Below, piece by piece: positions 41,489 to 45,296 of a stretch of DNA of 64,000 bases (position 1 is its first letter; every line of letters begins with the position of its first letter). Source of the stretch: Nitratireductor aquimarinus (GTDB lineage: Bacteria; Pseudomonadota; Alphaproteobacteria; Rhizobiales; Rhizobiaceae); assembly GCF_017255295.1 (NCBI RefSeq), contig NZ_JAFKDE010000005.1, positions 62,001 through 126,000 on the forward strand, read 5' to 3'. Position numbers and translations under genes: made by a program. The notes under the pieces are model-generated. The model saw only the letters and a program-made list of their open reading frames with translations, was not told the DNA's origin and ran no database searches.

Positions 41489-41526
41489 AACGCCGCGCAT
41501 TCACCCGAATGCGCGGCGTTTTCTTT
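41489..41526 (+). terminator. Rho-independent terminator of acsA
   Basis: A perfect 14-bp stem (AACGCCGCGCATTC / GAATGCGCGGCGTT) with loop ACCC is followed by TTCTTT. It lies 57 bp after the acsA stop. Confidence 0.93.
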
Positions 41527-41530
41527 GCCC

Positions 41531-41560
41531 CTTGCACGAGGCGGCATCCATCTCCACATT
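41531..41560 (+). promoter_or_regulatory. Candidate promoter of the small transcript downstream of acsA
   Basis: CTTGCA (41531-41536) and CACATT (41555-41560) are 18 bp apart, placing a start near 41567, just after the acsA terminator and 30 bp before the small ORF. The -35 fits the alphaproteobacterial consensus, the -10 poorly. Confidence 0.35.
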
Positions 41561-41596
41561 GTGTGTATCGTCAACGAACCGAAAGGGGGTGATCCA

Positions 41597-41665
41597 ATGT
41601 CGAGTGATTTCCGTTCAAACGTGGTCTCGATGGATTGCCTTCACGGGGAGCAGACTTCCCGCTGA
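41597..41665 (+). CDS. Putative 22-codon small ORF with very strong ribosome site (small mRNA or dual-function RNA)
   Basis: ATG at 41597 opens a 22-residue frame (MSSDFRSNVVSMDCLHGEQ, then TSR and stop). The 16 bases before it, GAAAGGGGGTGATCCA, match the complement of the 16S rRNA 3' end (GAAAGGAGGTGATCCA) at all but one position, among the strongest Shine-Dalgarno sequences possible. The transcript unit is bounded by the acsA terminator upstream and its own terminator at 41734-41766. A small GC hairpin (GGCCTGC-TTCG-GCAGCC) lies between ORF and terminator. There is no downstream gene on this strand, so it is not an ordinary leader peptide. I do not recognise the peptide; it may be a small protein or the leader of a regulatory RNA. 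Confidence 0.45.
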   Translation: MSSDFRSNVVSMDCLHGEQTSR

Positions 41666-41733
41666 AGCGCATGAAACGCGGACGGCCTGCTTCGGCAGCC
41701 TGACCATGACCGCGTGCGAATTCGAAAACACGG

Positions 41734-41766
41734 GGCCGTTCCTTCGGGAGCGGCCTTTTGTTTTTT
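41734..41766 (+). terminator. Rho-independent terminator of the small transcript
   Basis: GGCCGTTCC-TTCG-GGAGCGGCC (one G-U pair, stable UUCG tetraloop) is followed by TTTTGTTTTTT. It ends a unit of roughly 200 nt beginning after acsA. Confidence 0.9.
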
Positions 41767-41793
41767 GGGTATGGGTTCCCTGTCTGAAAGGAA

Positions 41794-42012
41794 GGCGCTC
41801 GCCCCTCATCCCCCTGCCGGGACCTTCTCCCCGCCAGCGGGGAGAAGGACGCCATGCTCGAGCGTCGAACCCGAATCGGCCTTAAACTCCAAGTTTGAAT
41901 CAGGTCCTTTGTGCCTCCACATGAACGCACAACGACCCAGGAAGAAGACGCAGGCTTAAACGCCCCCTTCTCCCCGTGCACGGGGAGAAGGTGAGGATGA
42001 GGGGCGAGCGCC
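41794..42012. mobile_element. MITE-like element with 18-bp perfect terminal inverted repeats
   Basis: GGCGCTCGCCCCTCATCC at 41794-41811 and GGATGAGGGGCGAGCGCC at 41995-42012 are exact inverted repeats. Just inside each end is a hairpin CCTTCTCCCCG..CGGGGAGAAGG, the palindromic family also present at 32446-33063. The 219-bp element has no coding frame. No target-site duplication is obvious. It could be a non-autonomous transposable element or two palindromic repeats in opposite orientation. Confidence 0.6.
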
Positions 42013-42033
42013 GACGCTTCAAAACCCGCCCCA

Positions 42034-42489
42034 TCAGCAGACAAACGAAACCCGCCGGCCACCGCCATAGGCAGCCACCAGCTGCGCATCGAGCAGCCGC
42101 GCGGCCACATCGCCACCCGGCTCCGTCGCGACATCGGCCAGAACCCGCCCGTAATATTTGCCGCCGCTGATGGCGCTGATCCACACCGTTCCGCCATCCA
42201 GAAGCACTTGAAGCGCAGCCTTCGCCTGGCGGGCCGCCGCCTTCTCGGCGGCGCATCGGCTGCGAAGCTCCGGCGCGTCGACGCCGCGAATGCGCACACT
42301 CACCGTGATGCGCTGCCCCGGCCATATATGCGCCTCGGCGATGAAGGTGTCGCCGTCAACAACGCGCAGAACGCTCGCCCGCACGGGGCCGGGTATCGCC
42401 TCTCTGCGCCCGGCAAGCGCAGCCGTCTGCCCGCTCCAGAAGAGCGCGAGCAAGACAATGACCATGCATTTCAGGCGAGACCGGATCAT
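42034..42489 (-). CDS. Thermonuclease family protein (SNase-like)
   Basis: About 151 residues: an N-terminal signal peptide (MVIVLLALFWSGQTAALA) and a staphylococcal-nuclease-type OB-fold with VVDGDTF, RIRGVDAPELRSRC (catalytic Arg and Asp region) and YYGRVLADV. It should be an exported Ca-dependent nuclease, or a related extracytoplasmic domain with unproven activity. ATG at 42489 is used; an in-frame ATG at 42510 is possible. Both starts lie inside a 40-bp dyad. Confidence 0.88.
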   Translation of the reverse strand: MIRSRLKCMVIVLLALFWSGQTAALAGRREAIPGPVRASVLRVVDGDTFIAEAHIWPGQRITVSVRIRGVDAPELRSRCAAEKAAARQAKAALQVLLDGGTVWISAISGGKYYGRVLADVATEPGGDVAARLLDAQLVAAYGGGRRVSFVC

Positions 42490-42520
42490 GGAAGGAATAT
42501 ATTCCTTCATTAGGATCCGG
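42481..42520. promoter_or_regulatory. 40-bp dyad covering the thermonuclease start region
   Basis: The central perfect palindrome GAAGGAATATATTCCTTC (42491-42508) is flanked by CCGGATC (42481-42487) and GATCCGG (42514-42520), also inverted. Both possible start codons of the nuclease gene are within it. It could be an operator or an mRNA hairpin controlling initiation. Confidence 0.6.
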
Positions 42521-42855: not shown

Positions 42856-43905
42856 ATGAACACGATACGCACCGCGATGCTCTTGGCCTTCATGACGGCC
42901 CTTTTCATGGGCGTGGGCTATCTGATCGGAGGCAGTGGCGGCATGATGATCGCCTTCCTGTTTGCCGCCGGCATGAATCTGTTCAGCTACTGGAATTCCG
43001 ACAAGATGGTGCTCAAAATGCACCACGCCGTCGAAGTGGACGAGCGCAACGCCCCGGAATATTACGCCATCGTGCGCGATCTGGCGGCCCGCGCCGACCT
43101 TCCCATGCCGCGCGTCTACCTGATCAAGAACGACCAGCCCAACGCGTTTGCCACCGGCCGCAACCCGCAGAATGCCGCTGTCGCAGCCACCACCGGCCTG
43201 CTCGACCGGCTGAGCTATGAAGAGGTCGCCGGCGTGATGGCGCACGAGCTCGCCCATGTGCAGAACCGCGACACGCTGACCATGACGATCACGGCGACGC
43301 TGGCCGGCGCGATCTCCATGCTCGGCAATTTCGCCTTCTTCTTCGGCGGCAACCGCGACAACAACAATCCGCTCGGCTTCATTGGCGTGCTCGTTGCAAT
43401 GATCGTCGCTCCGCTCGCCGCCATGATGGTGCAGATGGCCATCAGCCGCACCCGCGAATATTCGGCCGACCGGCGCGGCGCGGAGATCTGCGGCAACCCG
43501 CTGTGGCTCGCCTCCGCGCTCGACAAGATCGCCCGGCGCACCAAACAGGTGGTCAATCAGGACGCCGAGCGCAATCCCGCCACCGCACACATGTTCATCA
43601 TCAACCCGCTGTCGGGCGAGCGCATGGACAATCTGTTCTCCACCCACCCCGACACGGACAACCGCATCGCGGCCCTCTACGCCATGGCGGAGGAACCCCG
43701 TGGCGGCGGGCGGCAGGCCTGGCCTTCCGCCCCACAGCGCGATCCCGCACCTGAAGAGGATGCGAACCACGGCCCGTGGGGGGCAAGACCGGGGGCGAGA
43801 CCGGACGCACGGCCAGACGAACCGCCTCAGCGACCAAAGCCCGCCCCAAAGCCCCAGCAGAAATGGGGCCGTGACGCCGATGGATCGAAAGGCCCCTGGT
43901 CGTGA
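42856..43905 (+). CDS. htpX: Zinc metalloprotease HtpX
   Basis: A 349-residue inner-membrane M48 protease for quality control of membrane proteins. Two N-terminal helices precede the HELAH zinc motif (residues 130-134), two more helices follow, and the third zinc ligand is in the [10 protein letters not shown] segment. After residue about 280 there is a Pro/Arg/Lys-rich tail ([16 protein letters not shown]) not present in E. coli HtpX. The start MNTIRTAML fits the family. Stop overlaps the rsmB start (GTGA). Confidence 0.95.
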
Positions 43906-45296
43906 GCCGCCCGAACGCACGCCGCACGGCCGGGAAGAAGCCCGCCGGTCAGAACCGCCCAGTAAACCAAGAGCCTGATAAGCCCGGCCTTGAAACGCGC
44001 CGCGTGGCGACAAAGCTGCTCGCCGCCGTCGTGGATGCCCACGCCTCGCTCGACGGGCTTACCGACCCGGCCCATGGCCAGCCCAATTTCCGCGCGCTTG
44101 ATGCGCGCGACCGCTCGCTGGTGCGCGCCATCCTGATGAGCGCCCTGCGCCATCGCAGCACCATCGAGGCCCTGCTCGCGCGCCGTCTGGAGCGCCCCCT
44201 GCCGGCCAATGCCCGCGCGCTCTCTCACGCGCTGCATGTGGCGGCAGCACAGATCCTGTTTCTCGACGTGCCCGACAGCGCCGCCGTCGACCTCGCCGTC
44301 ACCCAGGCGAAGAGCGACCCGCGCCTTGCCCGCTTTGCCGGTCTCGTCAATGGCGTGCTGCGTAATCTGATCCGCGTGAAGGCGCGCGCACTGCCCGCCG
44401 CCCTCGACCAGACGCGTGAAGCGCCGGACTGGTTTGCCGGGCGGCTGGAAGCGGCCTATGGCGCGGAGACCACCGCCGCCATTCTCGCCATGCATCGCGT
44501 TGAGCCGCCGGTGGACTTTACCGTCAAGGAAGACCCGCAGCGCTGGGCCGAGGCGCTGGGCGGCATCGTGCTGCCCACGGGCACCGTGCGGATCGCCCGG
44601 CTCGAGGCCGGCGTCGACACGCTTCCGGGCTTCGAGGAGGGCGCGTGGTGGGTGCAGGACACGGCTGCCAGCCTGCCCGCAAAGCTGCTCGGCGACATCG
44701 CCGGCGCGCGCGTGGCGGATCTCTGCGCCGCCCCCGGCGGCAAGACCGCGCAGCTCATCCATGCCGGCGCAGACGTCACCGCCGTCGACCTGTCGAAGAG
44801 CCGCCTGAAGCGGCTTGCCGAGAACCTGACGCGGCTTCGCCTCGATGCTGAGATCGTCGAGTCCGACATCCGCAAGTTCCAGCCGGACACGCCCTTCGAC
44901 GCCATCCTCATCGACGCCCCCTGCTCGTCCACCGGCACGGTGCGCCGCCACCCGGATGTGCCGTGGACCAAGTCGCCTGAAGACATCGAGAAGCTCGCCG
45001 CCCTGCAGCGCGCCCTGCTCGACCATGCCGTGACGCTGGTGAAACCCGGCGGGCGGATCGTGTTTTCCAACTGCTCGCTCGACCGGGCCGAAGGCGAGGA
45101 CATGCTTGAAGCCTTCCTGGCCGAAACGCCGGACGTGGCGCTCGATCCCATCCAGCCTGACGAAGCGCCCGGCATCGCCGCCTTCGTCACGCCCGAAGGC
45201 TTCCTGCGCACCACGCCCGCCGACACGCTCGGCGAGGATCCGCTGGCGCGGGGGCTCGACGGCTTCTTCGCTGCGCGCCTCATTCGCCAGCGCTGA
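43902..45296 (+). CDS. rsmB: 16S rRNA (cytosine-C5)-methyltransferase, RsmB/NOP family
   Basis: A 464-residue protein with an N-terminal NusB-like helical domain (about 25-165) and a C-terminal SAM-dependent m5C methyltransferase domain. SAM site: [15 protein letters not shown]. Catalytic Cys motifs: [17 protein letters not shown] and the second, [13 protein letters not shown] (TCS changed to NCS). The start is a GTG overlapping the htpX stop. E. coli RsmB modifies C967 of 16S rRNA; the same target is probable here. Confidence 0.93.

Follow-up and report, generated by a model that had tools for sequence, protein, structure and literature searches.

Organization of the unit

The window, a stretch of 64,000 nt of Nitratireductor aquimarinus DNA, carries 3' of acsA a unit of about 200 nt in which a promoter-like site, an extended Shine-Dalgarno (SD) stretch, an ATG, a 22-codon ORF and a terminator follow one another. 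Its features and the terminator preceding it are listed below; P1 denotes a long-range helix, H1 and H2 are hairpins.

41489..41526, + strand: terminator that follows acsA upstream of the unit; 14-bp stem at 41489-41520, then a T-rich tail, by direct reading
41531..41560, + strand: promoter-like site, CTTGCA (41531-41536) and CACATT (41555-41560)
41581..41596, + strand: extended SD stretch, judged by 16 possible pairs with the 16S 3' end and by duplex energy
41597..41665, + strand: 22-codon ORF MSSDFRSNVVSMDCLHGEQTSR, one Cys, stop TGA; length and stop conserved in relatives
41604..41626, + strand: P1 5' strand within the ORF, 19 pairs with 41708-41731, duplex -22.6 kcal/mol; covariation in relatives
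41644..41661, + strand: hairpin H1, CGGGGAG-CAGA-CUUCCCG, in the last codons of the ORF, one base 5' of the stop codon
41680..41705, + strand: hairpin H2, 3' of the stop codon, predicted from the single-sequence fold of the window only
41708..41731, + strand: P1 3' strand, abutting the terminator stem
41732..41766, + strand: downstream terminator, stem 41732-41757 and T-tract, from the terminator scan

The rule of the terminator scan did not list the stem at 41489-41520, and a sigma-70 scan called no promoter at 41531-41560; from the promoter-like site we infer a transcription start near 41567-41570. The unit was compared with 299 distinct alphaproteobacterial sequences from 318 loci. In these relatives, CTTG occurs at -65 to -67 from the start codon far above background, and a loose -35/-10 match was found in 188/299 as against 21/299 in a control stretch. 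The motif [CA]AAC lies 5' of the SD in 266 of the 299 (47 in the control), and 226/299 have a terminator-like site (7/299 after shuffling). The sequence-only reading of this DNA had described an autonomous transcript between two strong terminators with no gene following on the same strand. This description agrees with the promoter-like site and terminator present in the window and its relatives, which point to a unit that is probably transcribed on its own, with the two flanking stems and their T-rich tail or tract, and with the position of the next gene, of the SNase family (42034-42510), on the opposite strand. Just 3' of the unit, at 41785-42021, lie nested inverted repeats with two CCTTCTCCCCG-type palindromes that resemble REP elements. 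A gene for an RsmB/F-type 16S rRNA methyltransferase with a NusB domain (43902-45296) follows about 2.1 kb past the unit, probably by coincidence.

Pairing of the start region with 16S rRNA

The stretch GAAAGGGGGTGATCCA (41581-41596, + strand) directly abuts the ATG at 41597 and is identical to the complement of the 16S 3' end at 15/16 bases. The odd base is a G opposite U, so that all 16 bases are able to pair (one G-U). Since no 16S sequence was obtained from the assembly of the window genome itself, the tail CTGCGGCTGGATCACCTCCTTTCTAAGGA was taken from a genome of the same family (L320). The duplex is predicted at -29.0 kcal/mol, while the best value among 176 mechanical ORFs of at least 100 aa in the window, scored at whichever of their first three starts paired best, was -20.9 kcal/mol and the median -11.4 kcal/mol. 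The exceptional pairing with the anti-SD noticed in the sequence-only reading is thereby upheld by the predicted energies. A GAAAGGGGGTGATCCA-type start site has a single match in the window genome, and the unit was present in 10/10 genomes of the genus that were searched, its own included.

Distribution among genomes

The start-site pattern was found in 97/199 genomes of the family, 177/397 of the order, 76/289 of the class and 56/299 of the phylum. In the phylum search, which used a shared pattern that does not match the GGGGG form of the window itself, the positive genomes were 56/113 of the Alphaproteobacteria and 0/186 of the other Pseudomonadota. Reversed patterns served as controls and matched in 0/199 family, 2/397 order and 1/289 class genomes, with 0 matches in the phylum. 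Roughly half of the searched genomes lack the pattern, which counts against the ribosome-gating reading set out below. Positive genomes nearly always had a single match, the exceptions seen being G818, whose second match appears unrelated, and G069, whose two matches differ before the start (CCGATG, CGAATG) and may be a duplicate. A scan of species genomes yielded at least 119 stretches, and among the matches listed there were Sphingomonas, Novosphingobium, Rhodobacteraceae, Bradyrhizobium, Methylobacterium and Roseococcus.

The invariance of the SD in the relatives is partly a matter of construction, because most of them were gathered by an SD pattern; four extra units found by BLAST or a covariance model have nearly the same SD (GAGAGGAGGTGATCC twice, GAAAGGAGGTGGTCC and GAAAGGAAGGTGATCC). 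The start codons (ATG 209, GTG 90) are likewise partly set by pattern design. Where the start base was left free, in the order and family searches, the matches listed had ATG or GTG, save for one unrelated-looking TTG, and the class-level search also lists TTG starts.

Relation to CC2171

At its own cut-offs, an Rfam search of the window returned tRNA only and nothing at this locus. In a permissive search, the model of CC2171 (RF01867) aligned over its full length (1-159) to 41573-41756 with 31.6 bits and an E-value of 5.5e-5, and in the whole-genome search the locus was the only RF01867 match in the window genome (E 1.2e-4). Other weak Rfam matches at the locus had lower scores and were taken as chance. 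Given the full-length alignment and a score below the gathering cut-off of 75 bits, we regard the window RNA as a divergent relative of CC2171 that is not a member by the Rfam rule. The covariance-model search thus relates to a named family a unit that the sequence-only reading did not recognise.

The association extends to other genomes. Matches to RF01867 were obtained in 24/40 genomes searched (own included), one of them above the cut-off, and 24 of the 26 matches listed coincide with the unit; the remaining two (G003:C21 and G022:C15) are without SD and ORF on reading. Caulobacter vibrioides was the only matching genome among 14 controls and passes the cut-off. Among eight records of GTG-type units, six exceed the cut-off at 82.5-91.5 bits, including Bosea, Methylobacterium, Brevundimonas and a Caulobacterales MAG, and the others score 64.2 and 28.3. 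The window RNA has in common with CC2171 the terminator and a 5' block composed of CAAC, GAAAGGAGGUGAUCC and the start codon, the part with GAAAGGAGGUGAUCC and the start codon being kept with one G for A. The Rfam structure of CC2171 also contains a long-range helix like P1. The two differ in the start codon, which is ATG and not GTG in the window RNA, and in the sequences of P1 and of the hairpin (MSS type).

CC2171 is filed by Rfam as an sRNA, and the original Caulobacter report is that of Landt et al. from 2008. Our search of the literature on CC2171 and RF01867, conducted partly by title and abstract, returned no account of the ORF, of its overlap with P1 or of the spread of the unit, and the letters of the start site used as a query returned no paper. 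In the passages available, the Rfam paper gives one further covarying pair for the family (PMC11701678) and CC2171 is among the predicted sRNAs of Mesorhizobium huakuii (PMC5596092), while the main-text passages of PMC5082802 and PMC10117765 do not name the RNA.

Conserved structure of the RNA

Hairpin H1 was assessed in an alignment (A1) of the 48 of 129 MSS-type sequences with a recognised terminator, in which 94.8% of cells are paired and 6/7 pairs change on both sides. Double changes occupy 50 cells as against 14.1 after shuffling, and slid versions of the hairpin reach at most 67.8% paired. H1 is present in 128/159 MSS-type relatives; the loop falls in the main frame in 105 of these and outside it in the other 23.

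The helix P1 joins codons 2-12 of the ORF to the 28 nt at the terminator, with a mean of -24.5 kcal/mol over 223 relatives. Moving the windows reduced this to -14.4 to -16.6 kcal/mol on the 3' side and to -13.6 to -19.3 kcal/mol on the 5' side. Swapping P1 strands between relatives cost 8.9 (MSS), 6.6 (MSH) and 7.4 kcal/mol (other types). No cost was seen in the Sphingomonad type, which speaks against ribosome gating; the Rhodobacter type offered only four swaps and Bradyrhizobium none. Dinucleotide shuffles matched P1 in 118/2580 (MSS), 26/580 (MSH) and 85/580 (other) cases, and in the separate types in 25/280 (Sphingomonad), 49/300 (Rhodobacter) and 33/140 (Bradyrhizobium), the last of these being a further point against gating. 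A CAC at the terminator, found in 102/129 MSS-type sequences, served to anchor a further comparison; there, the five scored positions that follow are paired in 65.1%, as against 52.4% (maximum 57.6%) after shuffling. H1 and P1 therefore both covary in the relatives, and these are the compensatory stem changes that the sequence-only reading had named as support for an RNA.

P1 belongs to the best fold of 121/223 free RNAs and of 201/223 RNAs whose SD is held open. It is clear and covarying in the relatives, while in the window it competes with other folds: the free fold of the window RNA (-82.0 kcal/mol) is without P1 and has a hidden SD, and forcing P1 gives -77.8 kcal/mol. With the SD held open, P1 is limited to its inner half, the T-tract being an alternative partner of the outer 3' strand; this too is a point against ribosome gating. 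In the free fold, SD positions 41585-41596 pair with 41631-41642, the ORF segment UGGAUUGCCUU, which resembles the 16S tail, and such masking is a possible second switch in the modelled window RNA. As a general device, an internal anti-SD mimic hiding the SD was set aside and is kept as a side observation, since across relatives it pairs only moderately better than dinucleotide shuffles, which paired as low in 162/1290 (MSS), 92/290 (MSH), 23/150 (Rhodobacter type) and 2/70 (Bradyrhizobium type) cases.

The open reading frame and its peptide

An in-frame stop ends the ORF in 299/299 relatives (TGA 184, TAA 71, TAG 44). A length of 14-36 codons was found in 297/299; the corresponding counts averaged about 101 (maximum 115) for shuffled sequences and were 99 and 73 for the other two frames. 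Of the stop codons that had changed within 87 near pairs, 16 were again stops and one was a sense codon. This conservation of length and stop points to selection for translation, and the small ORF proposed in the sequence-only reading can be considered real. The two long ORFs are those of L098 and L151. The former, from Azospirillum, has 59 codons and a start like that of a signal peptide, and may represent an ordinary gene instead of this RNA.

The peptide itself shows a different picture. The 81 independent near pairs contained 73 synonymous and 155 nonsynonymous single changes, with 57 multiply changed codons set aside, and substitutions fell on codon positions 1, 2 and 3 in numbers of 104, 130 and 115. 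These pairs replaced per-group ratios (0.35 to 16 in frame 0), which were pairwise and non-independent. Depending on the rate model, dN/dS was 0.71 or 0.84. A synonymous excess in the reading frame had p = 0.24 when transitions were favoured and p = 0.018 at equal rates (dN/dS 0.71); the latter value is a point against ribosome gating, tempered by the non-coding frame 2, where equal rates gave p = 0.038. The reading frame thus does not stand out from frame 2 in its excess, and no clear peptide signal tied to the frame emerges. Weak constraint on the peptide is still possible, also because RNA pairing constrains synonymous sites. The Ka/Ks comparison suggested earlier as support for a protein thus leans towards one under equal rates, does not do so when transitions are favoured, and reads alike in frame 2.

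Across orders the peptides have little in common beyond Met-Ser, the TC of the second codon being fixed by the patterns; the peptide MSSDFRSSVVSMDCLRGEQSSR is carried by one record (L045) and three congeners. The motif MSSD..EQP had suggested a conserved protein, a view reversed by the codon counts and by the frame of the hairpin: the conserved 'EQP' is the loop of H1.

Discussion

Comparison of the relatives shows an anatomy that consists of an extended SD, a start codon, an ORF of 14-36 codons with its stop, H1 (in MSS-type relatives) and P1. We read the unit as a translated, ribosome-gated riboregulator. In our main reading, to which we give a probability of roughly 45%, this divergent relative of CC2171 is a structured small RNA, about 200 nt long, whose short ORF persists for the sake of translation itself, not of the peptide.

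In the window, the first pair of P1 lies 7 nt past the initial base of the start codon and thus inside the mRNA channel, so that a docked 30S subunit could place the start codon only by opening P1. P1 and ribosome entry are therefore expected to be mutually exclusive. The very strong SD would admit ribosomes to the closed RNA, and a translating ribosome would strip P1 and H1 and depart at the stop before reaching the 3' strand of P1; the stop codon lies at least 20 nt before the terminator, and so ahead of this strand, in 222/226 relatives. As P1 is in the best fold more often with the SD open than in the free RNA, and as the ribosome would remove it, docking is expected to favour the closed form and translation the open form. 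P1 is hence a switch in principle, which cells may put to use. The shape of the RNA would then report ribosome engagement, and its 3' half would be expected either to work in trans or to determine how stable the RNA is. As a tentative extension, which we consider less likely than not, the RNA would be an alphaproteobacterial housekeeping RNA and a sensor of the initiating 30S subunit, in which the ORF is conserved only for the passage of ribosomes, docking and translation flip the closing helix, and the peptide is discarded.

The evidence bears differently on the other explanations. Short ORFs ahead of genes often act as regulatory leaders, and the unit could control the next gene. This gene lies on the same strand in 87/200 and on the opposite strand in 113/200 cases, the upstream genes are divided similarly (102 same, 95 opposite), and a terminator lies between, all of which argues that the unit is not a leader and makes control of the next gene hardly credible. 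The pairing of the start region with the 3' end and the strong SD are also found in the fold-back mRNAs of type I toxins, which would stay silent until their ends open. The unit occurs across the class, almost always as a single copy, and the listed peptides, judged by eye, are mostly polar and not conserved, with no conserved hydrophobic peptide among them, so a toxin is very improbable. The conserved start, frame, length and stop, and the synonymous excess under the one substitution model, would be accounted for if the unit were a gene for a functional small protein served by a very strong SD. Such a gene is unlikely in view of the same excess in frame 2, the even spread of changes across codon positions and the variation of the peptides between orders; moreover, the shared residues follow from H1, which places them out of frame in 23/128 cases. 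The highly translated small protein offered by the sequence-only reading is therefore not supported as a conserved peptide, while its other options, an RNA that contacts the 30S subunit or a dual-function sRNA, stay among the candidates.

The unit may also be a conventional base-pairing sRNA whose ORF merely protects the RNA or turns it over, in keeping with the cataloguing of CC2171 as an sRNA and with a free-standing layout of promoter-like site and terminator. We find this rather doubtful, as it leaves the pairing of ORF codons 2-12 with the 3' end unexplained. The main rival, to which we allow a modest chance, is capture of 30S subunits: the RNA would be docked by 16 pairs, and a standby complex closed by P1 would mask the anti-SD and favour leaderless or non-SD mRNAs. 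This fits the docking half of the data, since the duplex is far stronger than that of the stretch upstream of any other ORF in the window and P1 is compatible with an occupied SD in 201/223 relatives. It also suits the many Caulobacter genes without an SD, 75.4% according to the passages available of PMC4117421, which also state, without names, that two earlier ncRNAs are translated. However, both an open frame and a stop are conserved, and pure capture has no need of them.

If the ribosome-gated reading holds, CC2171, which is without an assigned function in the literature searched, would gain an anatomy and a testable mechanism, and many relatives below the Rfam cut-off are now linked to it. 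The unit would further represent a natural case in which selection on translation and on the peptide seem separable, and an RNA with a 16-base SD in a class with many SD-less genes may provide a handle on the use and regulation of the anti-SD.

Several known systems are similar in part. In Alphaproteobacteria, rnTrpL/peTrpL (PMC10117765) and Pos19 (PMC5036791) are short RNAs with a translated short ORF, for which, according to the parts of these papers available, the peptide or the downstream operon matters, whereas the peptide of window-type RNAs appears free to drift. Extended SD sites with 16S pairing beyond the SD core are described for Staphylococcus aureus in the accessible part of PMC13009471; there, two further pairs occur in ordinary mRNAs, while the window unit has 16 possible pairs in a structured RNA. 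The alphaproteobacterial sRNA ar14 (RF02344) is likewise built on the SD/anti-SD code, but has CUCCUCCC loops that resemble the anti-SD, whereas the window RNA carries the SD instead. An over-threshold ar14 lies just past the unit on the opposite strand in one record (L024:1730-1851, - strand), and a sub-threshold ar14 was seen about 1.7 kb before the unit in another (L145).
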